A stretch of 33,253 nucleotides of DNA. Origin: an uncultured Oscillospiraceae bacterium (GTDB lineage: Bacteria; Bacillota; Clostridia; Oscillospirales; Oscillospiraceae). The DNA lies in contig CALXFT010000022.1 in assembly GCA_944387635.1 (NCBI GenBank), positions 1-33,253 of the forward strand, given 5' to 3'. Numbering within the stretch: the first letter of the stretch is position 1; each line of letters begins with the position of its first letter. The notes beneath the pieces are model-generated. The model saw nothing but the letters and a program-made list of their open reading frames with translations. It did no database searches and had not been told where the DNA came from. Position numbers and translations under genes: made by a program. This document shows, in pieces, positions 240 to 28,501 of the stretch.

Positions 240-1295
240 TTACAGCAGCACCAGGGGCTTGATCAGATCTCTGGGCTTGTCCTTCATCATCATCAGGGCG
301 GGTTCTACGCCCTCCAGTCCCTGGAAGGTGTGGGTAATGAGCTTCTCAGGGTGGATTCTTCCGGCCATGACCAGACGGGCCAGCTTCTCGGAACGCACCC
401 GGCCGCCGGGCATCAGTCCGCCCCGGATGGTCTTGTGGCCCATGCCGCAGCCCCATTCGCCCCGGGGGATCTTCACATAGTCCCCCTCGCCCAGGTAGTT
501 GACGTTGCCGATGATCCCGCCGGGCTTCAGCATCCGGATGGCCTGGTCAAAGGTGTCGTTGTCGCCGCCGGCCACGATGATCTTGTCCACGCCCTGGCCC
601 CGGGTCAGATCCATGATCTGCTCCACAATGTCGCCCTGGCGGTAGTTGATGATCTCCGTGGCGCCGAATTCCCGGGCCAGGTTTGCGCAGTTGGTGCGGG
701 AGCCGACGGCGTAGATCTGGGCCGCGCCGCGAATGGCAGAGGCCGCCACGGACATAAGCCCCACAGGGCCGATGCCGATAACCGCCACATTGTCGCCGAA
801 CTGGATGTCCGCCAGCTCCGCGCCGTGGAAGCCTGTGGGTACCATGTCGCTGATCATGCAGGCGGCCCCCAGGTCCATGCCCTGGGGAAGAAGAGCCAGG
901 TTGCCGTCGGCGTCGTTTACGTGGAAGTACTCGCCGAAGACGCCGTCCTTGAAGTTGGAGAATTTCCAACCGGACAGCATGCCGCCGGAGTGCATGGGAT
1001 ATCCCTCCTGGGCGGCCTTGGAATTCCAGTCCGGGGTGATGGCGGAAACCAGAACCCGGTCGCCGGGCTTGAAGTCCTTCACCAGGGCGCCGACCTCCAC
1101 AACCTCGCCAACGGCCTCGTGTCCCAGAATCATATTGTGACGGTCGCCAATGGCTCCGGCCCAGACGGTGTGAACGTCAGAAGTGCAGGGCGCCAAAGCG
1201 ATGGGTTTGCAAATGGCGTCCATTGGCCCGCATATGGGCCTTTCCTTCTCGATCCAACCGGTTTCACCGATCTGAAGCATTGCAAATCCTTTCAT
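240..1295 (-). CDS. adh: NADP-dependent zinc secondary-alcohol dehydrogenase (TbADH/isopropanol dehydrogenase type)
   Basis: The 351-residue protein matches the Thermoanaerobacter brockii/Clostridium beijerinckii NADP-dependent alcohol dehydrogenase family along its whole length, from the MKGFAML start to the DLIKPLVLL end. The catalytic zinc ligands are at the family positions, Cys37, His59 and Asp150, with Glu60 beside them. The Rossmann motif GIGPVG is at 174-179. Ser199, Arg200 and Tyr218, which bind the 2'-phosphate of NADP in this family, are all present, so NADP(H) is the likely cofactor. It would interconvert secondary alcohols or aldehydes with ketones or alcohols in the cytoplasm as an electron sink. 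The start is supported by an AAGGAGAA ribosome site at 1303-1310. It is a single-gene unit. A Rex-like operator sits just downstream of its -10 box, which suggests control by the NADH/NAD ratio. Confidence 0.93.
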   Translation of the reverse strand: MKGFAMLQIGETGWIEKERPICGPMDAICKPIALAPCTSDVHTVWAGAIGDRHNMILGHEAVGEVVEVGALVKDFKPGDRVLVSAITPDWNSKAAQEGYPMHSGGMLSGWKFSNFKDGVFGEYFHVNDADGNLALLPQGMDLGAACMISDMVPTGFHGAELADIQFGDNVAVIGIGPVGLMSVAASAIRGAAQIYAVGSRTNCANLAREFGATEIINYRQGDIVEQIMDLTRGQGVDKIIVAGGDNDTFDQAIRMLKPGGIIGNVNYLGEGDYVKIPRGEWGCGMGHKTIRGGLMPGGRVRSEKLARLVMAGRIHPEKLITHTFQGLEGVEPALMMMKDKPRDLIKPLVLL

Positions 1296-1347
1296 AATTC
1301 AGTTCTCCTTGCTGTTTTTGCATATTTTGAATCAGGAAATTTTCCTG

Positions 1348-1371
1348 TATTCGATAAATTTTTATCAATAA
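1348..1371. promoter_or_regulatory. Probable Rex operator of the alcohol dehydrogenase promoter
   Basis: Two inverted half-sites, TATTCGATAA and TTATCAATAA, are separated by 4 bases. Read on the minus strand, the core is TTGATAA-AAAT-TTATCGA, the 7-4-7 layout of the published Rex consensus TTGTTAA-N4-TTAACAA with one or two changes per arm. It lies directly downstream of the -10 box, over the likely transcription start. The rex gene at the end of this window has a very similar element in the same relative position. Assignment to Rex is inference. Confidence 0.65.
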
Positions 1372-1372
1372 A

Positions 1373-1401
1373 ATTATATCATATTATGCGCCAATAAGCA
1401 A
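1373..1401 (-). promoter_or_regulatory. Sigma-A type promoter of adh
   Basis: On the minus strand TTGCTT (1401-1396) and a perfect TATAAT (1378-1373) are separated by exactly 17 bases in an AT-rich patch upstream of the gene. Confidence 0.7.
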
Positions 1402-1457
1402 TAGGAATTATATGAAAATTTCGTTAAATTATGTCCGGCCGGAAATCTTCCGGAGAC

Positions 1458-1486
1458 TTGCGTCTTGTCGAATTGTGTAGTATAAT
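1458..1486 (+). promoter_or_regulatory. Sigma-A type promoter of the PfkB kinase-pyridoxamine kinase unit
   Basis: TTGCGT (1458-1463) and TATAAT (1481-1486) are 17 bases apart, and the start codon follows 36 bases after the -10 box. Confidence 0.7.
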
Positions 1487-1522
1487 ACCCAAAGCCAGTA
1501 AACTGTTTTCCAGGGAGGATTT

Positions 1523-2449
1523 ATGGGTATTGTTGTGATCGGAGCGGTTTTTGTGGATATCAAGGGTTATCCCGAAGACGTATTTCTCCCCACGGGCAGA
1601 AACGTGGGCAGGGTGGAGCATATCCACGGAGGCGTTGCCCGGAATGTGGTCGAAGACATCGCCAACTGCGAGCTTCGCCCAACCTTTGTCAGCCTGGTGG
1701 ACGAGTCCGGCACCGGGGCCGATGTGGTGCGCAAGCTGAACAGCCACAAGGTCAACACTGATTTCATCCGCAAGACCCCCGACGGCATGGGCACCTGGCT
1801 GGCCGTGTTCGACAACGACGGCGACGTCTGCGCCTCCATCTCCAAGCGGCCCAACCTGATGCCCATTTTACAGACCCTTCAGGAGCACGGCGACGAGATC
1901 TTCGCAAATGCCGACAGCGTGATCATGGAGATCTGCGTGGACAAGGAGATTGTGAAGGCCGTTCTCGCCCTGGCGAAGAAGCACCATACCAGGGTCTACG
2001 GGGTCGTGGCAAACATGAATATTGCCCTGGAGCGCCGGGACTTTTTGAAGTCCCTGGACTGCTTCGTATGCAACCGGCAGGAGGCCGGAATCCTGTTCTC
2101 CGACGACTACACCGGCCGGTCTGTCCGGGAGCTGGAGGAGGTCCTGGACCAGAGAATCCACGCGGCCAGGATCCCTGCCATGATTATCACCCTGGGGGCG
2201 GAAGGGGCCGTGTATGCCAACCTGAAGGGCGAGCGGGGCTTCTGCCCTGCCCGGAATGTCAACGTGAAGGACACCGCGGGCGCCGGAGACGCCTTCTGCG
2301 CCGGGGCCGCCATCGGCCTGACCTACGGCAAGGATCTGGGGCAGGCCTGCGAAATCGGCGCCATGCTGGCCGCCTCGGTTCTCGTCACCTCCGAAAACGT
2401 GTGTCCCCGATTCCTGCCAACGGAGCTGGGGCTGGATATGGATGTTTAA
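1523..2449 (+). CDS. PfkB-family carbohydrate/nucleoside kinase, pseudouridine-kinase-like
   Basis: This 308-residue cytoplasmic kinase of the ribokinase/PfkB superfamily would transfer phosphate from ATP to a sugar or nucleoside. The N-terminal GGVARN motif (36-41) is typical of pseudouridine kinases and close relatives. The C-terminal signature DTAGAGD (250-256) supplies the anion hole and the catalytic base Asp256. The start is fixed by a GGGAGG ribosome site about 5-10 bases upstream and a good promoter before it. It is followed after only 3 bases by a pyridoxamine kinase, so the two are co-transcribed. No pseudouridine glycosidase gene lies beside it, so the substrate is uncertain; adenosine-, ribose- or aminosugar-type kinases are alternatives. 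Confidence 0.85.
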   Translation: MGIVVIGAVFVDIKGYPEDVFLPTGRNVGRVEHIHGGVARNVVEDIANCELRPTFVSLVDESGTGADVVRKLNSHKVNTDFIRKTPDGMGTWLAVFDNDGDVCASISKRPNLMPILQTLQEHGDEIFANADSVIMEICVDKEIVKAVLALAKKHHTRVYGVVANMNIALERRDFLKSLDCFVCNRQEAGILFSDDYTGRSVRELEEVLDQRIHAARIPAMIITLGAEGAVYANLKGERGFCPARNVNVKDTAGAGDAFCAGAAIGLTYGKDLGQACEIGAMLAASVLVTSENVCPRFLPTELGLDMDV

Positions 2450-2452
2450 TCT

Positions 2453-3280
2453 ATGGAATACAAGCGTATTTTATCCATTCAGGATCTCTCCTGCCTGGGC
2501 CAGTGTTCCACAACGGTGGCCATGACGGTGCTCAGCGCCTGGGGGCATGAGACCTGCGTGCTGCCCACGGCCCTGCTGTCCACCCACACCGGGGGCTTTG
2601 GGACCCCGGAGGTGGTCCATCTGGACGACTTTCTTTTCAGGACCCTGGACCACTGGGAGCGCCGCGGCATAACCTTCGACGCCGTTCTGATCGGGTACCT
2701 TGGCAGTCTGAAGGCCGTGGACGCGGCGCGGCAGGCGGTCTCCCGGCTGCTGGCCCCCGGCGGCGTCTGCGTTCTGGACCCGGTCATGGGGGACCGGGGC
2801 AGGCTCTACTCCGGCTTTGACCTTGAGTATGTGGAGGCCATCCGGGACCTGTGCCGGATCGCACACATTATGCTTCCCAACACCACCGAAGCGGCCCTTC
2901 TGACCGGGACGCCCTATGAGGAGGCGGAGGGAGCGGCCTATGCCCGGAAGCTTCTGGACAAGCTGGACCATCCCCAGGTCCTGCTCACCGGCGTTGGCCC
3001 CACGGCAGATCAGACCGGCTTTCTGCTGAAGCAGGGGGGAAACGTACGATCTTACCATCACCGGCGCATCGGCGCCGGCTGTCACGGCACCGGGGATCTC
3101 TTCGCCGCCTGCCTGACCGGAGCCTGGATGCGGGGCAATGAACCGATGGAGGCGGGCCGGATGGCGGCGGACTTCGTGTGCGCCTGCGTGGAAAACACCC
3201 AGGGGGACCCGGACCACTGGTACGGAGTCAAGTTCGAGCCCCTGCTGGCAAAGTGGATACAGGAGAGGAAGGGGCAGTGA
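2453..3280 (+). CDS. Pyridoxamine/pyridoxal kinase
   Basis: The 275-residue protein belongs to the pyridoxamine kinase branch of the ribokinase superfamily and would phosphorylate vitamin B6 vitamers in PLP salvage. Visible features are the start MEYKRILSIQDLSCLGQCS, a DPVMGD motif near residue 108, and the active-site signature GAGCHGTGD at 207-215. There Asp215 is the expected catalytic base, and the Cys-His pair is typical of kinases that accept hydroxymethyl-pyridine or -pyrimidine substrates. The gene starts 3 bases after the upstream kinase stop with no strong SD of its own, suggesting translational coupling. A terminator overlaps its last codons. PLP-dependent cysK lies elsewhere in the window, but no direct link is visible. 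Confidence 0.85.
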   Translation: MEYKRILSIQDLSCLGQCSTTVAMTVLSAWGHETCVLPTALLSTHTGGFGTPEVVHLDDFLFRTLDHWERRGITFDAVLIGYLGSLKAVDAARQAVSRLLAPGGVCVLDPVMGDRGRLYSGFDLEYVEAIRDLCRIAHIMLPNTTEAALLTGTPYEEAEGAAYARKLLDKLDHPQVLLTGVGPTADQTGFLLKQGGNVRSYHHRRIGAGCHGTGDLFAACLTGAWMRGNEPMEAGRMAADFVCACVENTQGDPDHWYGVKFEPLLAKWIQERKGQ

Positions 3281-3297
3281 CTGCCCCTCTTTTTTTT
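3271..3297 (+). terminator. Intrinsic terminator overlapping the pyridoxamine kinase stop codon
   Basis: A perfect 7-bp stem (GGGGCAG, CTGCCCC) has the TGA stop codon as its 3-base loop and is followed by TCTTTTTTTT. The terminator begins inside the coding sequence. Confidence 0.9.
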
Positions 3298-3330
3298 CGC
3301 GGATCTCTTCCACTTTCGATTCCTTTGTTG

Positions 3331-3336
3331 TATAAT
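3331..3336 (+). promoter_or_regulatory. -10 box of the polysaccharide deacetylase promoter
   Basis: A perfect TATAAT occurs 33 bases before the start codon. The -35 region 17 bases upstream (TTCCAC) is poor, so the promoter may need an activator or use an extended -10. Confidence 0.5.
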
Positions 3337-3368
3337 ATTATGTAAACAAAAAGTCGGAGGAAGCGGCT

Positions 3369-4835
3369 ATGAAGACCAAAACAAACAAACCCGCCCGTCT
3401 GCGCAAAGGGCTGGGGATCCTTTTCCTGCTCATGGCACTCCTGGGGAGCCTTGTCTGGACCGTTCTGTTCCGGATCAACCGGTTTTCTCTGTCCGTGACA
3501 ACGGTGGGGGACAGCGTGGTGGAAATTGAATACGGCGGGCGTTTTGAGGAGCCGGGGGTGACGGTGTCCCTTCACGGGACCCGGTTCTGGAAGACGGGGA
3601 TCCCCGTTTCCGGGGCGAAGCTGACGATGGAGGGGCAGGTGGATGAGGCTGTGCTGGGACGCTACACCCTGGTCTATCACGCCTCCTGGATGGGGCTCTC
3701 CGCCCAGACGGAGCGGAAGGTCTGCATTGTGGATACCCAGAGCCCGGTGATCCGGCTGACAGAGCCGCCGGATGGCTTCTGGGACGGCCGCGGGTCCTTT
3801 CAGGAGCCGGGGTTTTCGGCGGTGGACAACTATGACGGGGACATCACGGACCAGGTGCGGATTCTCCACGAGCCGGGCCTGGTGACCTACTCCGTAACGG
3901 ACCGCTGCGGCAACCCGGCCAGTGTTCAGCGGAAGATCCCCGTGTTTGACCGGGAGCCGCCGGTGATCGAGCTGACAGGCGGCCAGAACCTCACCATCGG
4001 AGTGGGCAAGCCCTATACAGAGCCGGGGTTCCGGGCGGAAGACGCGGTTGACGGGGATCTGACGGCCCAGGTTCTGGCGGAGGGAACGGTGGACTGGCTG
4101 CGGCCCGGCATGTACGACATTACATACAGCGTCAGCGACGCCCAGGGAAACGCCGCCTCTGTTACCCGGCAGGTGGAGGTAGTGGCCCAGCCCCGGCCTG
4201 AGACCCAATGGCCCCAGGAGAAGACCATCTACCTGACCTTTGACGACGGTCCCGGTCCTCACACCCGCCGTCTGCTGGATGTTCTGGACCGGTGGAATGT
4301 AAAGGCGACCTTCTTTGTTACGGGCTTCGGTGATACGGAGCTGATGAAGCAGATTGTGGAGCGGGGACACAGCATCGGCATTCACACAGTTACCCACGAC
4401 TATGAGACCATCTACTCCAGCCCGGAGGCGTATTTTGACGATCTGTACCGGATGCAGGAGATCATCTACGCGGCCACGGGGGTGCGGACCACTTTGATGC
4501 GGTTCCCCGGCGGCAGTTCCAATGAGGTCAGCTGCGCGCTCAGCCCGGGGATCATGACCACCCTGACCCAGGCCGTTCAGGACGCGGGCTTTCAATACTT
4601 CGACTGGAATGTGGACAGCGACGACGCGGGCAGGGCAAGAGATGCCAAAACCGTGTTCGAAAATGTGACCGAGGGCCTTGCCCAGACGCGGGTCGCCATG
4701 GTTTTGCAGCACGACATCCACGGCTACAGTGTGGACGCGGTGGAGCAGATTATTGCCTGGGGTCTGGACCGGGGCTATGCCTTCCGGCCTCTGAACGAAC
4801 ACAGCCCGGGCTTTCACCACCAGGTGAACAACTGA
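3369..4835 (+). CDS. Membrane-anchored polysaccharide deacetylase with Ig-like (DUF5011-type) modules
   Basis: The 488-residue protein begins with a basic cytosolic tip and one membrane helix (about 13-35), then two or more Ig-like modules of the DUF5011 type. The repeated pattern 'EPGF.A.D..DGD(I/L)T.QV' is seen near 140-160 and 220-240. A C-terminal NodB deacetylase domain follows. The NodB motifs are TFDDGP with Asp292/Asp293, the metal-binding HTVTH (His339, His343), RFPGGSSN from Arg378, and QHDIH with catalytic-type His448. It most likely removes acetyl groups from N-acetylated wall glycans such as peptidoglycan, outside the membrane, which commonly gives lysozyme resistance. The SD GGAGGAAG lies 6 bases before the ATG. 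It is a single-gene unit between a terminator and the leftward lipoprotein gene. Confidence 0.9.
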   Translation: MKTKTNKPARLRKGLGILFLLMALLGSLVWTVLFRINRFSLSVTTVGDSVVEIEYGGRFEEPGVTVSLHGTRFWKTGIPVSGAKLTMEGQVDEAVLGRYTLVYHASWMGLSAQTERKVCIVDTQSPVIRLTEPPDGFWDGRGSFQEPGFSAVDNYDGDITDQVRILHEPGLVTYSVTDRCGNPASVQRKIPVFDREPPVIELTGGQNLTIGVGKPYTEPGFRAEDAVDGDLTAQVLAEGTVDWLRPGMYDITYSVSDAQGNAASVTRQVEVVAQPRPETQWPQEKTIYLTFDDGPGPHTRRLLDVLDRWNVKATFFVTGFGDTELMKQIVERGHSIGIHTVTHDYETIYSSPEAYFDDLYRMQEIIYAATGVRTTLMRFPGGSSNEVSCALSPGIMTTLTQAVQDAGFQYFDWNVDSDDAGRARDAKTVFENVTEGLAQTRVAMVLQHDIHGYSVDAVEQIIAWGLDRGYAFRPLNEHSPGFHHQVNN

Positions 4836-4859
4836 CCCCCGGTCCGATCAAAGAAAAGA

Positions 4860-4891
4860 CCCGCGCCGCCCGGATGATCGGACGGTGCGGG
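4860..4891 (-). terminator. Possible second terminator hairpin downstream of the DUF4430 gene
   Basis: Arms CCCGCGCCG and CGGTGCGGG form a 9-bp stem with one G-U pair. On the minus strand the hairpin is followed by TCTTTTCTTTGATC. It lies beyond a stronger hairpin of the same orientation and may also insulate the convergent deacetylase gene. Confidence 0.4.
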
Positions 4892-4900
4892 CCGTAATGC

Positions 4901-4928
4901 AAAAGGGGCGGACGCTGCCGTCCGCCCC
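4901..4928 (-). terminator. Intrinsic terminator of the DUF4430 lipoprotein gene
   Basis: A perfect 9-bp stem (GGGGCGGAC, GTCCGCCCC, 6-base loop) starts 6 bases after the stop codon of the leftward gene and is followed on the minus strand by TTTT. Confidence 0.75.
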
Positions 4929-4934
4929 AAATTC

Positions 4935-5363
4935 TTATCCTTCCGCCACAAGGGAGTAGACCGCGCCGTCGGTGACGTCGGTCAGGTCAATGCCGGTCTG
5001 GGCGTACTCGCCGTCAATGTAGAAGGCCCAGTACATCTGGTCTGCGTCCCAGTCCAGGGTGATGCCGTTGACGGTGGTGACATACAGGCCGTACTCGCCC
5101 TCTTCACCGGCGATCAGGCCCTCGGCCAGCAAGGCATCGCCTACGGTCTTCTTGTCCGTGGTGTAGTCGAAGGTGGTCTCATTTCCATCCGGGTCAGTGA
5201 CGATCACCTGGAAGGAAACGCTCTGGGCCGGTTCGGTCTCGGTGCCGGCGTCGCTGCATCCCACGAAGCTCAGTGCCATAGCCGCAATCAGCACCATACA
5301 TCCGATGAGACACAGCATGGATTTCATGCTGAATCTACGCATAGTTGTACGCTCCTTATTCAT
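4935..5363 (-). CDS. DUF4430 (transcobalamin-like) lipoprotein under a cobalamin riboswitch
   Basis: The 142-residue protein starts MNKERTTMRRFSMKS, has a hydrophobic signal helix and a lipobox-like FVGC, so it should be a lipoprotein on the outer face of the membrane. The mature part is a single DUF4430 domain, the family related to the C-terminal beta domain of transcobalamin and intrinsic factor. The family pattern is visible: TVGDALL, GLYVTTVNG, YWAFYIDGEY and a closing DGAVYSLV. The start at 5363 has a GAGAGG site 7 bases upstream that lies in the riboswitch expression platform. An in-frame ATG at 5342 has its own AAGGAG and is a real alternative. The riboswitch and the divergent corrinoid transport operon suggest it binds or hands over corrinoids at the cell surface; this is inference. 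Confidence 0.85.
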   Translation of the reverse strand: MNKERTTMRRFSMKSMLCLIGCMVLIAAMALSFVGCSDAGTETEPAQSVSFQVIVTDPDGNETTFDYTTDKKTVGDALLAEGLIAGEEGEYGLYVTTVNGITLDWDADQMYWAFYIDGEYAQTGIDLTDVTDGAVYSLVAEG

Positions 5364-5364
5364 T

Positions 5365-5567
5365 ATTTTTCCTCTCTGCACCGGTTTCCGCGGCGGAGGA
5401 AATGGGCTGCCGGATATTCCGGCTCGGCGCGCCCCTCGCTCGGCCTTCTCGGATCGCTCCAATGACCAACCCGCCGCTGCGGCGCGGCAGTTTGAGCGGG
5501 GGATAAAAGCGCCTTACGGCGACGGACTCGCGCAGGATTCGCACCTGCTTCCCCGAACAGCAGGGCC
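5365..5567 (-). promoter_or_regulatory. Cobalamin riboswitch upstream of the DUF4430 gene, with SD-sequestering platform
   Basis: Reading leftward, the leader shows in order GGGGAA (5554-5549), a GCAGGTGCGAATCCTGC hairpin, CGCCGTAA, CATTGG (5464-5459), GAGAAGG (5450-5444) and a B12-box-like GAGCCGGAATATCCGG (5425-5410). These follow the cobalamin riboswitch core order. The CATTGG, GAGAAGG and GAGYCGG.AT elements recur in the same order in the divergent leader. Downstream, TTTCCTC (minus strand, 5402-5396) can pair with GAGGAAA (5374-5368), with an inner CGCCG/CGGTG stem. This would bury the ribosome site of the start at 5363, so control is probably at translation. The stretch 5364-5922 contains no protein gene; it holds the two divergent leaders. 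Confidence 0.82.
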
Positions 5568-5596
5568 ATTATAGCACATTTCCATAAGAAACTCAA
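5568..5596 (-). promoter_or_regulatory. Leftward promoter of the riboswitch-DUF4430 transcript
   Basis: On the minus strand TTGAGT (5596-5591) and a perfect TATAAT (5573-5568) are separated by 17 bases. The riboswitch begins right after it. Confidence 0.75.
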
Positions 5597-5615
5597 TCCC
5601 ATTTTGAATTCCTTA

Positions 5616-5644
5616 TTGCACATTGGGAAAAAATGTGCTACACT
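5616..5644 (+). promoter_or_regulatory. Rightward promoter of the cobalamin uptake/assembly operon
   Basis: TTGCAC (5616-5621) and TACACT (5639-5644) are 17 bases apart. It is back to back with the leftward promoter, with about 20 bases between the two -35 boxes. Confidence 0.55.
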
Positions 5645-5654
5645 GAATCCGACA

Positions 5655-5897
5655 TTTGAAATATGACAGAAAACAGTCACTGTTGAATTGGAATGGGGAA
5701 ATCCCAACGGTACCAAGCCGCCGTAGACGGACAAAAAAAGCCGCTTATCCCATTGGCGAAGGCTGAGAAGGGGTAGGCAACCAGGCGTCCGGAGTCGGCA
5801 TACGGACTTTGACTGAGCCGGTCAGACTCTTGGGGACGGTCTGGGGGCTTTGCGGCTGTATCCGCATGGTTCGCGGGCGGAGCCGCGCCGATTTTTC
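5655..5897 (+). promoter_or_regulatory. Cobalamin riboswitch of the ECF-cob operon
   Basis: The leader contains GGGGAA (5695-5700), a CGGT..CCAA.CCG hairpin, CCGCCGTAGACGG, CATTGG (5751-5756), GAGAAGG (5765-5771) and a B12-box-like GAGTCGGCATACGG (5792-5805). The order and several elements match those in the divergent leader. The following genes transport corrinoids and build the nucleotide loop, which fits the assignment. The aptamer should end near 5815. The rest is expression platform: GGGGACG (5832-5838) can pair perfectly with CGTCCCC (5897-5903), the left arm of the terminator, as an antiterminator. The exact aptamer borders are uncertain. Confidence 0.8.
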
Positions 5898-5918
5898 GTC
5901 CCCGAAAGGGGACTTTTT
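5898..5918 (+). terminator. Riboswitch-controlled intrinsic terminator before the first operon gene
   Basis: GTCCCC, a GAAA tetraloop, GGGGAC and TTTTT form a compact terminator that ends only 4 bases before the ATG at 5923. Its right arm GGGGA also serves as the likely ribosome site of that gene, so the hairpin could act on both transcription and translation. Confidence 0.85.
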
Positions 5919-5922
5919 CTTT

Positions 5923-6792
5923 ATGCGCAGCGACGCCTTTTCCAAATATCACCCGCTGACCAACTTCGTTTTCTTCCTGGGGGCCATCGGCTTCGCGGTG
6001 GTGATCCAGCACCCGGCCTACATTGGCGCCAGCTGCGTGGGGGGAGCGCTGTACCTTCTGCTGCTGAAGGGGCGCAAGTGCCGGAATATGCTGCTGGGAA
6101 TGCTCCCGCTGGTCGTGCTCATGGCGGCCTGGAATCCCCTGTTCAATACCTACGGCGAGCATGTGCTGTTTACGGTCTTCGGAAGGCCGTACACTCTGGA
6201 GGCTCTGTGCTACGGCATGGCAATTGCCGGGATCTTCGCGGCGATGATGCTGTGGTTCAGCTGTTACAGCGCGGTGCTGACCAGCGACAAATTTATCTGT
6301 CTGTTCGGGAAGCTGATCCCGGCCTTGTCGCTGCTGATCGTCATGGTGCTCAGAATGATTCCCAACCTGGTCCGCCGGGGTAAGCAGATCCTGGACGCCA
6401 GAAAATCCATCGGAAAAGGAGTCGGGGAGAACAACAGCCTGAAACAGAAGCTCCACGGCGGTATGCAGGTCCTGTCCGCTCTGACCGACTGGGCCTTGGA
6501 GGGCAGCATCGTCACCGCGGACTCCATGCGGGCTCGGGGCTACGGCACGGCCAGACCCACAAGCTTCCGGCTTTATCATATGACGCTTCAGGACTGGGCG
6601 CTGCTGGCGTGGATGGTTCTTCTGGCAGCCCTGGTCATCGCGGCAGGCGGGACCGGAGCGGAATACACGCCTCAGATCGACATCCCACGGCCCGGCTGGG
6701 GCTTTATCGCCTACTGCCTGTATCTCATGATCCCGTCACTGCTGCATGGAAAGGAGGCCGTTCAATGGGCTGTCTCGATATCCAGAATCTGA
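5923..6792 (+). CDS. ecfT: ECF transporter transmembrane component (EcfT/CbiQ family)
   Basis: The 289-residue integral membrane protein starts MRSDAFSKYHPLTN. It has hydrophobic segments near 14-48, 54-72 and 100-130, an amphipathic cytoplasmic region, and two helices at the end. The coupling-helix motif Ala204-Arg205-Gly206 in SMRARGYG is the EcfT signature that contacts the ATPases. It couples ATP hydrolysis to substrate uptake through the S component. I place the start at 5923, directly after the riboswitch terminator; an upstream in-frame ATG at 5809 lies inside the riboswitch and is unlikely. It is the first gene of the riboswitch-controlled operon and overlaps the next gene by 28 bases. 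Confidence 0.88.
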   Translation: MRSDAFSKYHPLTNFVFFLGAIGFAVVIQHPAYIGASCVGGALYLLLLKGRKCRNMLLGMLPLVVLMAAWNPLFNTYGEHVLFTVFGRPYTLEALCYGMAIAGIFAAMMLWFSCYSAVLTSDKFICLFGKLIPALSLLIVMVLRMIPNLVRRGKQILDARKSIGKGVGENNSLKQKLHGGMQVLSALTDWALEGSIVTADSMRARGYGTARPTSFRLYHMTLQDWALLAWMVLLAALVIAAGGTGAEYTPQIDIPRPGWGFIAYCLYLMIPSLLHGKEAVQWAVSISRI

Positions 6793-8426
6793 CATTTGAA
6801 TATTCCACTGGCCGGGAGCCGTCACTGCGGGATGTGAGCCTGACCATCGGAAAAGGGGAGTATGTGGTCCTGTGCGGGCCTTCCGGAAGCGGCAAGACCA
6901 CGCTCCTGCGGCATCTGAAAACCATGCTGACTCCCTACGGGAAGCGAAGCGGCGCTGTGTACCTGGACGGGACGCCTCTGGAGCGGATGACGCAGAAGGA
7001 CCAGGCTGCGAAGATCGGGTTCGTCATGCAGAACCCCGAGGACCAGATCGTCACGGACAAGGTCTGGCATGAACTGGCCTTTGGGCTGGAGTGCCTGGGG
7101 GTGGACCCCAAGGCCATGCGGCTTCGGGTAGCGGAAATGGCCAGCTACTTCGGAATCCAGAGCTGGTTCCAGCGGGATGTGGCCAGCCTGTCCGGCGGGC
7201 AGAAGCAGCTTCTGAATCTGGCCTCCATTATGGCCATGCAGCCGCAGATTCTGATTCTGGACGAGCCCACCAGCCAGCTGGACCCCATCGCCGCCTCGGA
7301 TTTTATGAATACGGTCAAGAAGATCAATCTGGAGCTGGGGACCACCATCCTGATTACGGAGCACCGGCTGGAGGACATCTACCACCGGGCGGACCGGGTG
7401 GTGGTCATGGACCAGGGCCGTATCCTGGCAAACGATACGCCCCGGAAGGTGGGGCAGCTCCTGTGGCGGCAGGATCATCCCATGTTTGCGGCACTGCCCG
7501 CGCCTCTGCGGGCATATTACCAGGCGGGGGAACGGGGAGAGGGGCCGATTACAGTCCGGGAAGGCCGGGACTGGCTGACCGGGACCTTTGAAAACCGGCC
7601 GGTGACCATTCCGGAGCCTGCGCGCGGGGAAAAGACCTTCCCGGAAAAGGACCCGGCCCTGAAGGCCAAGGGCCTGTGGTTCCGGTATGAAAAGGACGGC
7701 CCCGACGTCTTGCAGGACCTTTCGGTCACGGTTCCCAGGGGCAGCCTCTTTGCCATTGTGGGCGGAAACGGGGAGGGGAAGTCTACCACCCTGAAGGCCT
7801 TCTGTGGCGTCTGCAAGCCCTACCGGGGAAAGATTGAGATCTTCGGCAGGCCTCTGAGGGAATACAAGGCGGACCGGCTCTACAAAAATTGCGTGGCCAT
7901 GCTTCCCCAGGATCCCAAGAGCCTGTTCGTCAAAAGCACGGTGCTGGAGGACCTTCGGGAGATGTGCCGGGAGCCGGAGAAAATCGAAGCCGTGGCCCGG
8001 ACCTGCAACATCGTGCCGCTGCTGGACGCCAATCCACAGGACCTGTCCGGCGGCGAGCAGCAGCGGGCGGCTCTGGCCAAGGTATTGCTCACCGAACCGA
8101 AATTGCTTCTGCTGGACGAGCCTACCAAGGGCCTGGACAGCATGTTCAAAAAACAGCTGGCAGACATTCTGCGGGCCTTACAGGCCAGAGACGTCACCAT
8201 TGTTATGGTCTCCCACGATGTGGAGTTCTGCGCGGAATACGCGGATCTGGTGAGCATGTTCTTTGGCGGCCAGATCCTGACCACAGATACGCCCCGCCGC
8301 TTCTTCGGGCAGAACAGCTTCTACACCACGGCGGCCAGCCGCATGAGCCGGTGCATTTTTCGAAATGCCGTCACGGCGGAGGATGTGGCGGAGCTGTACC
8401 TGGCCAATCTGGAGGGAAGGTCATGA
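6765..8426 (+). CDS. ECF transporter ATPase with two fused ABC domains (EcfA-EcfA')
   Basis: The 553-residue protein carries two complete nucleotide-binding domains in one chain. Domain 1 has Walker A GPSGSGKTT (38-46), signature LSGGQ (142-146) and Walker B ending Asp166-Glu167. Domain 2 has Walker A GGNGEGKST (333-341), signature LSGGEQ from 427 and Walker B with Asp451-Glu452. A linker of about 60 residues joins them. Such fusions replace the separate EcfA1/EcfA2 pair and are usually dedicated to one vitamin rather than shared. The start at 6765 has AAGGAGG at 6751-6757 and lies inside the end of ecfT. It overlaps the next gene by ATGA. It would power corrinoid uptake with the neighbouring T and S components. 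Confidence 0.92.
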   Translation: MGCLDIQNLTFEYSTGREPSLRDVSLTIGKGEYVVLCGPSGSGKTTLLRHLKTMLTPYGKRSGAVYLDGTPLERMTQKDQAAKIGFVMQNPEDQIVTDKVWHELAFGLECLGVDPKAMRLRVAEMASYFGIQSWFQRDVASLSGGQKQLLNLASIMAMQPQILILDEPTSQLDPIAASDFMNTVKKINLELGTTILITEHRLEDIYHRADRVVVMDQGRILANDTPRKVGQLLWRQDHPMFAALPAPLRAYYQAGERGEGPITVREGRDWLTGTFENRPVTIPEPARGEKTFPEKDPALKAKGLWFRYEKDGPDVLQDLSVTVPRGSLFAIVGGNGEGKSTTLKAFCGVCKPYRGKIEIFGRPLREYKADRLYKNCVAMLPQDPKSLFVKSTVLEDLREMCREPEKIEAVARTCNIVPLLDANPQDLSGGEQQRAALAKVLLTEPKLLLLDEPTKGLDSMFKKQLADILRALQARDVTIVMVSHDVEFCAEYADLVSMFFGGQILTTDTPRRFFGQNSFYTTAASRMSRCIFRNAVTAEDVAELYLANLEGRS

Positions 8427-9127
8427 AACGAAGCGTCTGCATCAACCTGTTTACCTGGCTGATCCTGATCCCGCTGACCTTGTTTCTGGGGACCCGGCTG
8501 ACAGGACGGTGGTACTACCTGACCAGCACCCTGGTCATCATTGAGGCCATGTTGCCCTTTTTCTTCTCCTTTGAGACCCGGAAGCCCCAGGCCAGGGAGT
8601 TGGTGACCATTGCCGTCCTGTGCGCCCTGGCTGTGGCCTCCCGGGTGGTGGTCCTGATCCCCAACTTCAAGCCTACCACGGCCATCATTATGCTTTCGGG
8701 CATCGCCCTGGGGCCGGAGGCTGGCTTTGTCACCGGGGCTGTGACGGCCTTTGCCAGCAACTTCTTCTTCAGTCAGGGACCATGGACCCCCTGGCAGATG
8801 ATGGGATACGGCTTCGGCGGCTTCTTTGCCGGCGTGATTTTCGCCAAAAGGAGAGCCTGGCGCAATCCGGCGGGGCTGGCGTTGTTTGGCTTTTTTACCA
8901 TTTTGCTGGTGGTAGGGCCGCTGCTTGACTGCTGCACGCTGTTCACCACGGGCAGCAGGCTGTCCTGGAGCTATGCGGCGGCGGTTTTTATCGCCGGATT
9001 CCCCTACAATCTTCAACATGCCCTGGCCTGCGGCGCGACCATGCTGGTGTTCGGCAAGCCGCTGCTGGCGAAGCTGGACCGGCTGATTGTAAAATACGGC
9101 ATGATGGATGCCCGGAAGGAGGGCTAG
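8423..9127 (+). CDS. ECF transporter substrate-binding (S) component, probably for cobalamin or cobinamide
   Basis: The 234-residue protein has six or so membrane helices and no soluble domain, the size and shape of an ECF S component. The segment with GIALGPEAGFVTGAV followed by SNFFFSQGPWTPWQM resembles CbrT-like S components assigned to cobalamin uptake. The assignment is strengthened by the cobalamin riboswitch and by the cob genes in the same operon. The start ATG overlaps the ATPase stop (ATGA) and has GGAGGGAAGG before it. It could instead carry cobinamide, alpha-ribazole or dimethylbenzimidazole. The C-terminal tail is basic and cytosolic. Confidence 0.82.
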   Translation: MKRSVCINLFTWLILIPLTLFLGTRLTGRWYYLTSTLVIIEAMLPFFFSFETRKPQARELVTIAVLCALAVASRVVVLIPNFKPTTAIIMLSGIALGPEAGFVTGAVTAFASNFFFSQGPWTPWQMMGYGFGGFFAGVIFAKRRAWRNPAGLALFGFFTILLVVGPLLDCCTLFTTGSRLSWSYAAAVFIAGFPYNLQHALACGATMLVFGKPLLAKLDRLIVKYGMMDARKEG

Positions 9128-9129
9128 CC

Positions 9130-9870
9130 ATGCGTCAGAAACTCTATCTCTCCACCATTGACCCGAAGGCAGGACAGCTTGCCAGGGATTACGGCCTTGG
9201 CGTAGAGATCGCGGAATACTGCACCGCCTGGAATATGGACGCGGACTTTGCCCGGACCGATCAGACGGTTCGCAGGGCCATAGACGGTGTACAGCGGCGG
9301 ATCTTTCACGTCCCCTTCAATGAACTCTTTCCCTGCGCCATTGATCCCCAGGCCCGGGCTTTGGCGGCCCGCCGTTACCGTCAGGCCATGGAATTGGCCG
9401 CTGAGTACGACTGTAAGAAACTGGTGATCCACGGCGGCTATGTGACCAATGTATACTTCCCCGCCTGGTATACCCAGCAGTCCGTCTGCTTCTGGCGGGA
9501 ATTCCTGGAGACGGCCCCTGAGGACGTGACCATTTTCCTGGAAAACGTGCTGGAGGAAGAACCCCAGATGCTTCTGGACATTCTGAGGCAGGTAAAGGAC
9601 CCCCGGCTTCGGATGTGCCTGGATGTGGGGCATGCCCATGTGTATTCGAAAATCCCGGTGATGGAATGGCTGGAGGCCTGCGCCCCTTGGATCGGCCACT
9701 TCCACATCCACAACAATGACGGAAGCTGGGACAGTCACTGTCCCCTGGATCAAGGGACCATTCCCATGGAGAAATTGCTCGGACGGATCGAACAGCTGTG
9801 TCCCCAGGCCAGCCTGACCCTGGAACTGGCGGAGGCGGAATCCTCTGTCCGGAATTTACTGGAGGCGTGA
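9130..9870 (+). CDS. Xylose-isomerase-like TIM-barrel protein of unknown role in the cobalamin operon
   Basis: The 246-residue protein is of the sugar phosphate isomerase/epimerase (AP endonuclease 2) superfamily, a metal-dependent TIM barrel. Likely metal ligands are Glu138 (FLENV), Asp165 and His168 (LDVGHAH), His190 (HFHIHNNDG) and Glu232 (LTLELAE), so it appears catalytically intact. It starts 2 bases after the S-component stop, with AAGGAGGG at 9116-9123, and ends 3 bases before cobT, so it is firmly part of the operon. No standard cobalamin step is assigned to this fold. Possible roles are processing of a corrinoid side chain, a lower-ligand sugar or phosphate step, or an unrelated housekeeping reaction. 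The function is unknown. Confidence 0.8.
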   Translation: MRQKLYLSTIDPKAGQLARDYGLGVEIAEYCTAWNMDADFARTDQTVRRAIDGVQRRIFHVPFNELFPCAIDPQARALAARRYRQAMELAAEYDCKKLVIHGGYVTNVYFPAWYTQQSVCFWREFLETAPEDVTIFLENVLEEEPQMLLDILRQVKDPRLRMCLDVGHAHVYSKIPVMEWLEACAPWIGHFHIHNNDGSWDSHCPLDQGTIPMEKLLGRIEQLCPQASLTLELAEAESSVRNLLEA

Positions 9871-9873
9871 ACA

Positions 9874-10968
9874 ATGGAAACAATACTTTTGAAACGGCTG
9901 AAGGGAATCACGCCCTTGGATGGGGACGCCATGTCGGCAGCACGGGCCAGACAGGCCCAATTGGCCAAGCCGCCCGGCAGTCTGGGACGGCTGGAAGATC
10001 TGTCTGTACAGCTGGCGGGGATTACGGGGAAGGTCCATAACCATATCCCAGGCAAGCAGCTGCTGGTCTTTGCGGCGGACAACGGCGTGGTGGAGGAGGG
10101 TGTTTCCAGCGCGCCTCAGTCGGTGACGCTGATGCAGACTGTGAACCTGACCCGGGCCAAGACCGGGGCCAGTGTTCTGGCCAAACACTTCGGCTGCGGC
10201 GTCACCGTCTGCGATGTGGGGGTCAACGCTGAGATTCGGGATTCCGGGGTACTGGACCGGAAGATCGCCTACGGAACCCGGAACATAGCGAAAGGCCCGG
10301 CCATGGACCGGGATCAGGCCCTTCGCGCCATTCTGACCGGCTGGGACCTGGCTCTGGAGACGGAGGCGGATGTGCTTGGGATCGGGGAAATGGGCATCGG
10401 CAACACCACCACATCTTCGGCGGTGCTGGCGGTGCTGCTGGAGGCCGATGTGGAAGCTGTAACCGGCCGGGGCGGCGGCATTACCGACGACAGCTTCCGC
10501 AAGAAAAAGGAAGTGATCCGCCGGGCCATTGCCCGCAACGCGCCGGACAAGGACGATCCGGTGGATGTGCTGGCGAAAGTGGGCGGGTTTGACCTTGCCG
10601 CCATGTGCGGCGCGTTTCTGGGCGCTGCTGAAGCCCGGAAACCTGTGGTCATCGACGGATTTATTTCGGCGGTGGCGGCCCTGTGCGCCGTTCGGCTGTG
10701 TCCTCTTGTCCGGGGATACCTGATTCCCAGCCATGCGTCCTTTGAGATTGGCTATCAGCTGGCAATGAAGGCCATGGAGCTGGAGCCCATGTTCCTTTTG
10801 GGAATGCGGCTGGGAGAGGGCAGCGGCTGCCCTCTGGCTTTCCAGGTCCTGGAAGCCGCCTGCGCCGTCATCAACGACATGGCGACCTTTGACCAGGCGG
10901 GGATCGACGACGGGTATCTGGAGCCCATTCGGCAGGGGGATCGCTTTACCGTGGAGGGGAGAACATGA
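9874..10968 (+). CDS. cobT: Nicotinate-nucleotide--dimethylbenzimidazole phosphoribosyltransferase (CobT)
   Basis: The 364-residue protein matches CobT from end to end: the substrate-binding KPPGSLGRLE near residue 32, the FAADNGV motif near 67, a GIGEMGIGNTTTSSA block, and the catalytic RLGEGSG motif with Glu315. It moves phosphoribose from nicotinate mononucleotide to a lower-ligand base such as 5,6-dimethylbenzimidazole to give alpha-ribazole phosphate, the activated lower ligand of cobalamin. No bza or bluB gene for making the base is nearby, so the base probably comes from outside. It overlaps the following gene by ATGA. Confidence 0.95.
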   Translation: METILLKRLKGITPLDGDAMSAARARQAQLAKPPGSLGRLEDLSVQLAGITGKVHNHIPGKQLLVFAADNGVVEEGVSSAPQSVTLMQTVNLTRAKTGASVLAKHFGCGVTVCDVGVNAEIRDSGVLDRKIAYGTRNIAKGPAMDRDQALRAILTGWDLALETEADVLGIGEMGIGNTTTSSAVLAVLLEADVEAVTGRGGGITDDSFRKKKEVIRRAIARNAPDKDDPVDVLAKVGGFDLAAMCGAFLGAAEARKPVVIDGFISAVAALCAVRLCPLVRGYLIPSHASFEIGYQLAMKAMELEPMFLLGMRLGEGSGCPLAFQVLEAACAVINDMATFDQAGIDDGYLEPIRQGDRFTVEGRT

Positions 10969-11510
10969 TCTGCTTCATCTCCGGCGGCGCCAAGAACGGC
11001 AAATCCACCCTGGCCCAGAACCTGGCTTTGTCACTGGCCCGGGGCGGGACCCATTACTATGTCGCCACCATGATCCCCACGGACGGGGAGGACCGGGAGC
11101 GGATTCGCCGCCATGTGGAAGACCGGAAAGGTCTGGGATTTGAGACCATTGAGTGCGGCCGGAATATTCTTTCCTGCCTGGACGGAGCGGACCGAGAGGC
11201 CACCTTCCTGCTGGACAGCGCTACGGCGCTTCTGATGAACGAGCTGTTCCCGCCGGAAAAGAACTATGAGATGGACGTCCCGGCTGCCAAACGCTGCGCG
11301 GAAGAGCTGACGGCCTTTGCCGGATCGGTCCGGAACGCGGTGATCGTCAGCGACTACCTGTATTCCGACGCCATCCGCTACGACCGGAGCACCCAGGTCT
11401 ACCAGCAGTGTCTGGCGGACATCGACCGGGCTCTGGCGGCGGTCAGCGACACGGTGGTGGAGGTTTCCGCCGGGCAATACATTGTGCACAAGGGAGCGCT
11501 GAAGCTGTGA
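10965..11510 (+). CDS. CobU-family adenosylcobinamide kinase/guanylyltransferase, with altered C-terminal half
   Basis: The 181-residue protein is close in length to CobU. The N-terminal P-loop GGAKNGKST (7-15) is intact. The segment RIRRHVEDRKGLGFETIE corresponds to the family's RHxxxRPxxWxT(V)E region, whose His is guanylylated in Salmonella CobU. The later part is unusual: where CobU has NEVGxGIVP this protein has SDYLYSDAIRYD, and the conserved FRDxxGRxNQ helix reads YQQCLADIDRAL. A second, short CobU-like protein two genes on keeps those C-terminal features. It would phosphorylate adenosylcobinamide and/or activate it with GTP. The start overlaps cobT and the stop overlaps cobS. Confidence 0.85.
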   Translation: MICFISGGAKNGKSTLAQNLALSLARGGTHYYVATMIPTDGEDRERIRRHVEDRKGLGFETIECGRNILSCLDGADREATFLLDSATALLMNELFPPEKNYEMDVPAAKRCAEELTAFAGSVRNAVIVSDYLYSDAIRYDRSTQVYQQCLADIDRALAAVSDTVVEVSAGQYIVHKGALKL

Positions 11511-12256
11511 GGACTTATCTGCATGCCTTTGCCATGTGCCAGAGCATGTTCTGCGCCATTCCCTGTCCCTGGAAGATCTGGGACGAGGATGCCAGGGATA
11601 AAATGCTCCTGGCGCTGCCCCTGGTGGGGCTGGAGATCGGCCTGCTGTGGGCAGGACTGGCCTGGGCGGCGCAGGAGTTGGGACTGCCGGATCTGATCCG
11701 GGGGATTCTCCTGGCTGCCTGGCCCTACGCGGCCACAGGGTCCATCCACCTGGATGGATTCATGGACGTCACCGACGCGGTGGGGTCCTGCCGCAGCCTG
11801 GAGCGGAGGCGGGAGATCCTGAAGGATTCCCATGTGGGGTCCTTTGCGGTGATCGGCCTGTGCCTGACGGTCCTGGCCCAGTTCGCTTTTTTTTCTGCCG
11901 GAGAAGGGGACTGGCGGATTCTGATCTTCTTACCGGCAGTGAGCCGCTGCGGCTCTGCTCTGGCGGTGACGGGACTGAAATCCATGTCCACCAGCCAATA
12001 TGCGGCCCAGGAAAAGCCCAGATCCCGATTGGCTGTTCTTGGGGCTGTGCTTGCGAGCGTTATGGCCGCCGGATGGCTGTTCTGCGGGAAATATGTCCTG
12101 GTCCTGGCCGGGTGTTTGGGGGGATATGGTCTTGCCCTGCGCAAGGGATACCGCTCCCTGGAGGGGATGAACGGGGACATTGCCGGATACGCCCTGACCA
12201 AGGGAGAGCTCTGGGGCGCTTGTATTTATGGACTGATGGCGGGAGGAATATTATGA
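11507..12256 (+). CDS. cobS: Adenosylcobinamide-GDP ribazoletransferase (cobalamin synthase, CobS)
   Basis: The 249-residue polytopic membrane protein carries the CobS signature HLDGFMDVTDA (81-91), with the Asp pairs expected to hold Mg2+. Later blocks are LKDSHVGSFAV and the membrane helices from about 125 on. It joins adenosylcobinamide-GDP to alpha-ribazole (phosphate) at the membrane, the last joining step of cobalamin assembly. I place the start at a GTG (11507) that overlaps the preceding stop (GTGA), with AGGGAG 10 bases upstream. This retains the family's N-terminal helix, and no in-frame ATG fits as well. It overlaps the next gene by ATGA. Confidence 0.92.
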   Translation: MRTYLHAFAMCQSMFCAIPCPWKIWDEDARDKMLLALPLVGLEIGLLWAGLAWAAQELGLPDLIRGILLAAWPYAATGSIHLDGFMDVTDAVGSCRSLERRREILKDSHVGSFAVIGLCLTVLAQFAFFSAGEGDWRILIFLPAVSRCGSALAVTGLKSMSTSQYAAQEKPRSRLAVLGAVLASVMAAGWLFCGKYVLVLAGCLGGYGLALRKGYRSLEGMNGDIAGYALTKGELWGACIYGLMAGGIL

Positions 12257-12627
12257 TACTGATCATTGGCGGCGCGTATCAGGGGAAGCTGGGATTTGCC
12301 CGGGACGCGTTTTCCGTGACGGAGGCGGAAATCTTCGACTGTACCGGAGCCTCCATCGACTTTTCCAAGCGGTGCGTCCGGCATCTGGAGGAATTTTGCT
12401 ATGCCTGCGTAGAGGCCGGGGTGGAGCCGAAGGACTATTTTCTGGAGCATAAGGACCAGTGGCGGGACAGCATTCTGATCTGCCGGGACATTTTCTGCGG
12501 CGTGGTACCCACGGACCCGATACAGCGGGAATGGCGTCAGGCTGCCGGACGGCTGTGCCAGTATCTGACGGTGGAAGCGGAGCGGGTCAGCCGGATCTTC
12601 TGCGGACTGGAGCAGCGGCTGAAATGA
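12253..12627 (+). CDS. Short second CobU-like protein with a degenerate P-loop
   Basis: The protein has only 124 residues against about 180 for CobU. Its start MILIIGGAYQGKL aligns with the CobU P-loop, but the Ser/Thr after the Lys is Leu13. The middle section with the guanylylated His is missing. Its C-terminal half, from ICRDIFCGVVP (76-86) through REWRQAAGRLCQYL to a final GLEQRLK, follows the CobU C terminus closely. It looks like the complement of the other CobU-like protein of the operon, which keeps the front and has lost the back motifs. It may be a partner subunit or a decaying duplicate. It sits between cobS and cobC with 4-base overlaps on both sides, so it is co-translated. Confidence 0.78.
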   Translation: MILIIGGAYQGKLGFARDAFSVTEAEIFDCTGASIDFSKRCVRHLEEFCYACVEAGVEPKDYFLEHKDQWRDSILICRDIFCGVVPTDPIQREWRQAAGRLCQYLTVEAERVSRIFCGLEQRLK

Positions 12628-13175
12628 CTGTTTACCTGATCCGGCATGGAAAGACCTTGGCCAACGAAGGGCATCTGTACTGTGGCAGCACGGACCTGCC
12701 CCTGTCACCGGGGGGAATCGAGGAACTGGGGCGCTTAGCTTACAGGATGCCGAAGGCCCGGTTCATCACCAGCGGCATGCTTCGGACCGAGCAGACCCTG
12801 GAGCGGCTCTTTGGACAGGTTCCCCACATCCGGGATTCCCGGTTCCGGGAGGTGGATTTTGGGATCTTTGAGATGAAAAGCTATGAGACCCTCAAGGATA
12901 CGCCTGCCTATCAGGCGTGGATCACCGGGGATAACCGGGCCAATGTACCCCCCGGCGGGGAGAGCGGTCAGGCTATGGCAAAGCGAGTCCTGGAGGCCTT
13001 TTCTCAGGTTCAGGCCTCCGGCCAGGACACGGTGATCGTGACCCACGGCGGCGTGATCGCGGAGATTATGGCCCGTCTGTTCCCGGAGGAGGGAAAGAAT
13101 CGCTATCAGTGGCAGCCGGAGAACGGGAAGGGCTACGCCATCCGCGGCGGGACCTACCGCCCCATACCGGAATAA
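12624..13175 (+). CDS. cobC: Alpha-ribazole phosphatase (CobC), histidine phosphatase family
   Basis: The 183-residue protein belongs to the phosphoglycerate-mutase-like histidine phosphatases. Arg7-His8-Gly9 in LIRHGKT carries the nucleophilic His. A second His141 lies in IVTHGG, and FREVDFGIFE provides the acidic block typical of CobC-type enzymes. It would remove the phosphate from alpha-ribazole phosphate or cobalamin phosphate, closing nucleotide-loop assembly. The ATG overlaps the previous stop by 4 bases. It is the last gene of the operon and is followed by a strong terminator. Sequence alone does not exclude a different histidine phosphatase, but the context is decisive. Confidence 0.87.
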   Translation: MTVYLIRHGKTLANEGHLYCGSTDLPLSPGGIEELGRLAYRMPKARFITSGMLRTEQTLERLFGQVPHIRDSRFREVDFGIFEMKSYETLKDTPAYQAWITGDNRANVPPGGESGQAMAKRVLEAFSQVQASGQDTVIVTHGGVIAEIMARLFPEEGKNRYQWQPENGKGYAIRGGTYRPIPE

Positions 13176-27227: not shown

Positions 27228-27286
27228 ACTCTGTGGTAGATTTTTACATGGAAGTATCCAATGCAATTCTGTTAGAAGGTGTTTTT

Positions 27287-28498: not shown

Positions 28499-28501
28499 GC
28501 C

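Follow-up and report, generated by a model that had tools for sequence, protein, structure and literature searches.

A riboswitch-linked DUF4430 lipoprotein of Oscillospiraceae as a candidate corrinoid-capture subunit of a CbrT-type ECF importer

Importers of the energy-coupling factor (ECF) class normally work without a separate binding protein. What, then, is the role of a small lipoprotein gene that carries its own cobalamin riboswitch and lies back to back with a predicted ECF operon for corrinoid import? The gene lies in a stretch of 33,253 nucleotides (the window) from an uncultured, gut-type Oscillospiraceae bacterium (contig CALXFT010000022.1, assembly GCA_944387635.1), and its product consists of a single DUF4430 domain. 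An initial annotation, made from the letters alone, had proposed that the product may be a corrinoid catcher on the outer face of the cell. This interpretation is supported, since the fold, a conserved cysteine, the riboswitch link, the pairing with S-component genes and the relation of the latter to CbrT all came out in its favor, with binding and delivery predicted from sequence. We now regard it as quite probable that the lipoprotein is the membrane-anchored, outer-face corrinoid-capture subunit of a CbrT-type ECF importer. The features of the divergent region on which the argument draws are as follows.

4935 to 5342, minus strand: DUF4430 lipoprotein gene, 135 residues from the ATG at 5342 (142 from the ATG at 5363)
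5379 to 5394, minus strand, limits approximate: leader stretch between aptamer core and start, aligning with a covarying hairpin of relatives
5392 to 5579, minus strand: full-length cobalamin riboswitch aptamer of the lipoprotein gene (RF00174)
5568 to 5596, minus strand: sigma-70-like promoter site, TTGAGT-17-TATAAT with extended -10, a consensus match only
4905 to 4928, minus strand: terminator-like hairpin of 10 pairs, 3' of the lipoprotein gene
5644 to 5823, plus strand, core 5687-5811: second, divergent cobalamin aptamer before the ECF/cob operon (RF00174 and model R1, see below)
5898 to 5913, plus strand: terminator-like hairpin with T-run, between the second aptamer and ecfT

The stand-alone DUF4430 gene of the initial annotation is present as an open reading frame, and DUF4430 is the sole Pfam match of its product at E <= 0.01 (PF14478, 29.5 bits against a cut-off of 23.8). 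At the same threshold, neither a periplasmic-binding-protein domain, as in BtuF-like ABC (ATP-binding cassette) substrate-binding proteins, nor an alpha/alpha toroid joined to the beta domain was matched in it. It is also the one DUF4430 match in the whole source genome, an assembly of 2.36 Mb that is about 90% complete, so that absences from this genome count for little. The limits first given for the gene, 4935 to 5363, hold for the frame, but 5363 is only one possible start; the ATG at 5342 is preceded by AAGGAG and coincides with the position where relatives begin (23 of 24 alignment rows have ATG there). Translation from 5342 makes residue 29 the acylated cysteine. The N-terminus resembles a signal peptide and ends in ...SFVGC, such that residues 1-28 would be removed and Cys29 acylated; this position is Cys in 60 of 61 aligned proteins (the window's and 60 from the set of 80 loci described below), and the lipoprotein anchor that had been predicted is borne out to that extent.

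The fold of the domain speaks directly to the proposed kinship with human B12 carriers. The closest structure to the modelled DUF4430 domain is 3u7z (RUMGNA_00854 of Ruminococcus gnavus; 37% identity over 95 residues, root-mean-square deviation 0.9), followed by transcobalamin, haptocorrin and intrinsic factor, all well above the next rows of the Foldseek and VIA-align lists, which leave room for other beta-grasp relatives. The model is a beta-grasp fold that matches transcobalamin over the whole domain, so the suggested relation to the beta domain of transcobalamin and intrinsic factor stands. Its helix at 67-74 is followed by strands 77-82 and 85-91, which form an inserted beta-hairpin, and a beta-hairpin after the conserved helix is, in the relevant passages of PMC1796856, the defining trait of the transcobalamin-like SLBB clade. 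DUF4430 is matched in all 61 aligned proteins at E <= 0.01. The most conserved residues of the mature domain are Gly, Tyr, Trp, Phe, Val, Leu, Ala, Asp and Thr, and they fall where transcobalamin has its ligand-anchoring strands; His and Cys are not among the residues listed as conserved there.

The lipoprotein gene does have its own cobalamin riboswitch, as had been claimed. The aptamer at 5579-5392, on the same strand, scores 46.9 bits against an RF00174 gathering score of 31.5 (E 6.7e-9), was the only RF00174 match found genome-wide at E <= 0.05, and is recovered at 50.7 bits by R1, a covariance model trained on 23 cobalamin riboswitches of the bacterial family, the window excluded. The second, divergent aptamer reached 27 bits in the Rfam scan, below gathering (E 1e-4), and its core scores 44.2 bits under R1 (E 9.5e-7). 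The two back-to-back switches seem to serve the lipoprotein unit and the ECF/cob unit, respectively; for the latter, the hairpin and T-run at 5898-5913 suggest transcriptional control. Both the ligand and the ON/OFF direction of the switches are predictions. The lipoprotein gene looks like a self-contained transcription unit, because the riboswitch and a promoter-like site at 5596-5568 lie upstream (10 of 12 consensus positions match, where shuffled sequence gives a mean of 0.4 sites per region) and a terminator-like hairpin lies downstream. A polysaccharide deacetylase gene with bacterial Ig-like domains (3369-4835 of the window) is convergent with it.

A candidate mechanism by which the leader would mask the ribosome site was also considered. 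The predicted fold pairs UUUCCUC with the purine stretch before the ATG at 5363, but an exact-complement test on 71 relatives gave only three with at least 6 bases (mean longest complement 3.9, against 3.2 when shuffled), and masking is therefore not claimed. The only supported leader structure is the small covarying hairpin, which in relatives comprises 6 pairs, 4 of them with changes on both sides among 24 sequences.

Is the arrangement peculiar to this genome? Among 120 genomes of the same family (Oscillospiraceae), at least 83 contain DUF4430 and at least 88 contain RF00174. The matches listed include 41 DUF4430 genes with an open frame of at most 235 residues, the window's among them; we analyzed 40 longer loci, namely 39 of the other 40 (a copy at G088:C3:12721 was left out) and the same-genus locus L130. 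A tblastn match to the window protein was found in 27 of these, and together with the window they form a set of 28. The remaining 13, as a rule of a stronger DUF4430 type, include 9 with adjoining ecfT and ecfA genes, of which 8 also have an S component and one, L118, ends at a contig edge. Within the set of 28, an S-component gene lies immediately downstream of the DUF4430 gene in 24, the exceptions being the window and L112 (both with a divergent ECF/cob operon), L127 (a RuvB-like neighbor) and L131. A first S-component profile, built from full ECF operons, found 17 of these 24 genes, and the other 7 (L106, L108, L113, L117, L124, L138, L139) were recognized from their translations; four of the genomes concerned (G008, G010, G035, G106) were later matched by profile A6, described below, which excludes them. 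A cobalamin riboswitch lies upstream in 17 of the 28 loci, 14 times at or above a gathering score and three times only below gathering or with R1 (L103, L117, L131). Other classes are represented by an AdoCbl-II riboswitch (RF01689, above gathering) at L067/L106 and an RF01482 match below gathering at L091/L131. A lipobox Cys was found in 11 of the 28 proteins, and the same-genus relative L130, which has both a riboswitch and an S component, belongs to the anchored type.

A larger set was assembled by protein similarity alone, from a scan with the lipoprotein alignment A2 and one genome per species. Its 80 loci, the best of at least 526 relatives, are labelled Oscillospiraceae, Lachnospiraceae and other Clostridia, including Roseburia inulinivorans. 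R1 gave 89 matches at E <= 1 in the 80 loci (91 with the window's two), and a same-strand cobalamin riboswitch lies within 1 kb upstream of the gene in 75, at a median gap of 73 bases between aptamer core and protein match. R1 had been trained on no riboswitch from the 80 loci; of its 23 training sequences, four sit immediately before DUF4430 genes of the first survey, and at least two others (L039, L051) precede further DUF4430 genes at a distance of some kilobases. Twin divergent riboswitches recur in 8 loci. A second S-component profile, built from the 24 S genes of the first survey, placed a CbrT-related S-component gene immediately downstream in 63 loci, and six more (L142, L143, L144, L146, L202, L215) have a divergent operon of ecfT and S component as in the window, with ecfA in all but L146. 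The riboswitch-DUF4430 pairs beside ECF-B12 genes that the initial annotation had suggested looking for recur across many genomes.

The pairing also holds when read from the other side. Profile A6, made from 12 DUF4430-linked S components, was run over the same 120 genomes. At E <= 1e-12 it matched 48 times, in 47 genomes, and 35 of these matches are strong (E < 1e-30). Absent from the 48 is the S component of the window, which nevertheless aligns with A6 at 94.8% probability. A DUF4430 gene directly precedes 33 of the 35 strong matches (26 by coordinates and 7 of the remaining 9 by inspection), or 21 of 23 when the profile members are set aside; G096:C109 and G019:C199 are without one. The only PDB match of A6 at E <= 0.1 is CbrT (6fnp, E 2e-25). 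On the strength of this reverse pairing and this single structural match, the DUF4430-linked S components are a CbrT-like family that is nearly always paired with the lipoprotein or a membrane-anchored variant of it.

The DUF4430 genes of these loci come in several architectures. A natural fusion of DUF4430 to an S component was sought in five stretches chosen for longer frames (L225-L229) and found in none; in L225 and L229 the S component is a separate frame. The longer lipoproteins of the 80-locus set are tandem DUF4430 copies, with two or three copies in riboswitch-linked proteins at L178, L167, L215 (from 4001) and L214 (653-1258); a plasmid search with the three-copy protein returned one Subdoligranulum record at 39.7% identity. 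Two tandem cobalamin riboswitches precede the DUF4430 gene at L169 (3214-3932) and L212 (1054-1663). L131 carries three further cobalamin aptamers on the opposite strand (7022-8380, minus), upstream of a dockerin-containing protein of 942 residues with a signal-like start (3976-6804, minus). At L222 (G015:C12:20000-34000), positions 779-9998 hold an operon downstream of a cobalamin riboswitch, which encodes an SLH-anchored DUF4430 protein (1110 residues), a 506-residue SLH protein with a weak alpha/alpha-toroid match, a further DUF4430 protein, CbiQ and an EcfA-EcfA-S fusion (880 residues); its gene content suggests a bacterial transcobalamin that is split in two and placed on the S-layer. A comparable EcfA-EcfA-S fusion occurs at L224, together with an SLH protein that matches the toroid weakly.

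The operon that diverges from the lipoprotein gene in the window begins about 560 bases from it.

5923 to 6792, plus strand: EcfT-like membrane protein, 38% identity over 229 residues to the CbiQ-matching EcfT of L222
6765 to 8426, plus strand: fused EcfA1-EcfA2 ATPase, two ABC_tran stretches
8423 to 9127, plus strand: CbrT-like S component (PDB match 6fnp)
9130 to 9870, plus strand: TIM-barrel protein related to the cobamide-remodelling phosphodiesterase CbiR (NF041277, E 3e-13, 49.7 bits, below the cut-off of 105)
9874 to 10968, plus strand: CobT (PF02277, E 7e-130)
10965 to 11510, plus strand: CobU (PF02283)
11513 to 12256, plus strand: CobS, start uncertain (PF02654)
12253 to 12627, plus strand: shortened CobU-like protein, beside the complete CobU
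12621 to 13175, plus strand: CobC-like alpha-ribazole phosphatase (TIGR03162, 116.5 bits, below the cut-off of 162.9)

By its gene content this is a corrinoid import and remodelling operon, in agreement with the adjoining transport operon first described, and it is predicted to encode an ECF-CbrT-type importer. EcfT and two EcfA ATPases are present; the EcfT-like protein, which itself matches nothing in Pfam or NCBIfam at E <= 0.01, was recognized only via its relative. For the S component the only PDB match at E <= 0.001 is 6fnp (ECF-CbrT, E 2e-8). CbiC was not matched in the source genome, which contains one B12-binding-domain protein, a combination consistent with salvage and not with synthesis of the corrin ring. 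A methionine synthase activation domain, considered as a sign of B12 need, had no match in the source genome, so B12 demand rests on that one protein. Elsewhere in the window (27233-29446) lie two CobW-type genes. The product of the first combines a long His-rich region with CobW_C, and in that of the second a weak cobW match is joined by a DUF1980_C domain.

How might these parts work together? Low corrinoid in the cell would turn both riboswitches ON, and the lipoprotein and the ECF-CbrT/cob operon would be made. A lone transcobalamin-type beta domain, tethered to the membrane by lipid on Cys29, would catch cobamides or cobinamide crossing the cell wall and pass them to the CbrT-like S component, with EcfT and EcfA powering import; the CbiR-like protein, CobT, CobU, CobS and CobC would then remodel or complete the imported corrinoids. 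A surface location, corrinoid binding, contact with the S component and hand-over are what we infer for the protein. Cobalamin and cobinamide are both bound by the human transcobalamin beta domain on its own (PMC5599065), and B12 carriers that consist of the beta domain only have been cited in some organisms (PMC11107200, citing zebrafish work of Benoit et al. 2018). If the lipoprotein works as such carriers do, it would take up corrinoid on the outside of the membrane and deliver it to the S component; capture is likely on this comparison and hand-over plausible. A more speculative form, which we hold to be possible but tend to doubt, is a two-part cradle in which lipoprotein and S component act as beta and alpha domain and the corrinoid is sandwiched between them at the membrane surface.

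That said, several observations weigh against a capture subunit. CbrT alone, without a partner, binds cobalamin and cobinamide (according to the binding results in PMC5997447), and so has no strict need of a catcher. The window protein has no counterpart of the toroid half with which transcobalamin closes over its ligand, its conserved face (residues 77-121) might contact a protein and not a ligand, and 3u7z is deposited as a 'putative metal binding protein'. No riboswitch lies upstream in 5 of the 80 loci (L155, L218 and L221, with at least 2.6 kb of upstream DNA covered, and L165 and L179, with less than 600 bases), and none was detected in 11 of the 28 stand-alone loci of the survey (L107, L113, L116, L121, L125, L127, L129, L132, L136, L138, L140); L113, at the edge of its contig, has no upstream DNA. 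The condition set beforehand for refuting the interpretation, that DUF4430 genes of related genomes lack any link to B12 riboswitches, nevertheless did not hold. For 11 of the 80 loci, some of them cut by contig ends, the retrieved DNA contains no S component, whether downstream or divergent. Lipid anchoring is not universal, since 17 of the 28 survey proteins are without a lipobox (16 have an N-terminal hydrophobic anchor and L113 is cut by the contig end) and the strict lipobox pattern is present in 71 of the 80.

Three other roles would account for parts of this evidence. The lipoprotein could be a corrinoid-binding surface store, or a shield against competitors or for cell-cell sharing, that makes no direct hand-over to the ECF transporter. 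Tandem two- or three-copy forms (L167, L178, L214, L215) look like capacity builders, all of these loci but L215 show no S gene in the retrieved DNA, and the window lipoprotein appears to be transcribed on its own; we nevertheless find this unlikely in view of the CbrT-type S component that overlaps or adjoins in 63 of 80 and 24 of 28 loci, and of the reverse pairing in 33 of 35. Alternatively, the domain may have no ligand at all and stabilize the S component as an assembly or gating subunit. CbiN is such a partner of CbiM, and the DUF4430 protein is likewise small, membrane-anchored and paired one-to-one with a short S component, but it has the fold and the conservation pattern of a B12-carrier beta domain, and in the window and 6 of the 80 loci the gene diverges from the ECF operon, which makes this role very unlikely. 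We give least credence, a slim chance at best, to another ligand co-regulated with B12, such as cobalt or another metal; the PDB title of the closest solved structure points that way, whereas the conserved residues lie in a transcobalamin-like ligand region with no His or Cys among those listed, the partner profile has CbrT as its only PDB match and the operon contains cobinamide-salvage genes.

A conserved capture lipoprotein that is linked to riboswitches and tied to a single S-component family would change, for corrinoids, the view that an ECF importer needs no separate catcher. As a concrete candidate for such a system, the DUF4430/S-component pair occurs in many records of Oscillospiraceae and Lachnospiraceae. 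It also provides the orphan crystal structure 3u7z with a testable function, and the lipoprotein offers a bacterial one-domain counterpart to human B12 carriers. If the cradle exists, ECF transport would here be assisted by a binding protein, and the S components linked to DUF4430 would make up a widespread corrinoid importer family of gut Clostridia that has so far gone unrecognized.

The general idea of transcobalamin-like surface proteins working with CbiO and CbiQ is already published. Burroughs et al. (2007, PMC1796856) described, in the section concerned, transcobalamin-like SLBB proteins of low-GC Gram-positives, mostly secreted, that lie in operons with a CbiO-like ATPase and a CbiQ-like membrane protein and were predicted to scavenge B12 or its precursors. 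Those proteins are, as described there, multidomain, with a toroid or other extracellular domains, whereas the window protein has one domain; neither "riboswitch" nor "lipoprotein" occurs in the main text of that paper, and CbrT was characterized only afterwards (PMC5997447, 2018). A link of DUF4430 or of a bacterial transcobalamin-like protein to a cobalamin riboswitch was not found in searches of open-licence papers, a scope that leaves regulon databases and supplements outside, and the 2013 regulon survey PMC3766115, its supplements aside, is not among the papers containing the word DUF4430. What appears to be new here is thus a variant, given the 2007 proposal, the multidomain architectures and the lack of a riboswitch link in that literature: a minimal one-domain lipoprotein, riboswitch control and a near-constant CbrT-type partner.

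Four known systems bracket this arrangement. BtuG of Bacteroides has a beta-propeller fold unrelated to DUF4430. Like the window protein, it is a riboswitch-linked surface lipoprotein feeding a B12 importer, but it works with the outer-membrane BtuB in Gram-negatives, and homologues outside Bacteroidetes were not detected (relevant sections of PMC6143338). The ECF-CbrT importer of Lactobacillus delbrueckii (6FNP, PMC5997447) has an S component that is a clear relative of the window's and imports cobalamin and cobinamide; the parts of that paper on the complex and its cluster describe no extracellular partner, mention an undescribed cbrS gene and report no CobS, CobU or CobT homologues at the cluster, all three of which the window operon has. 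The 3u7z protein RUMGNA_00854, labelled putative metal-binding, is a stand-alone DUF4430 domain like the window protein. Transcobalamin, haptocorrin and intrinsic factor, of the transcobalamin-like clade of the SLBB superfamily, have the beta domain to which the window domain is likened; unlike them, the window protein is without the alpha/alpha toroid, and it is a bacterial lipoprotein, linked to a riboswitch and paired with an ECF S component.
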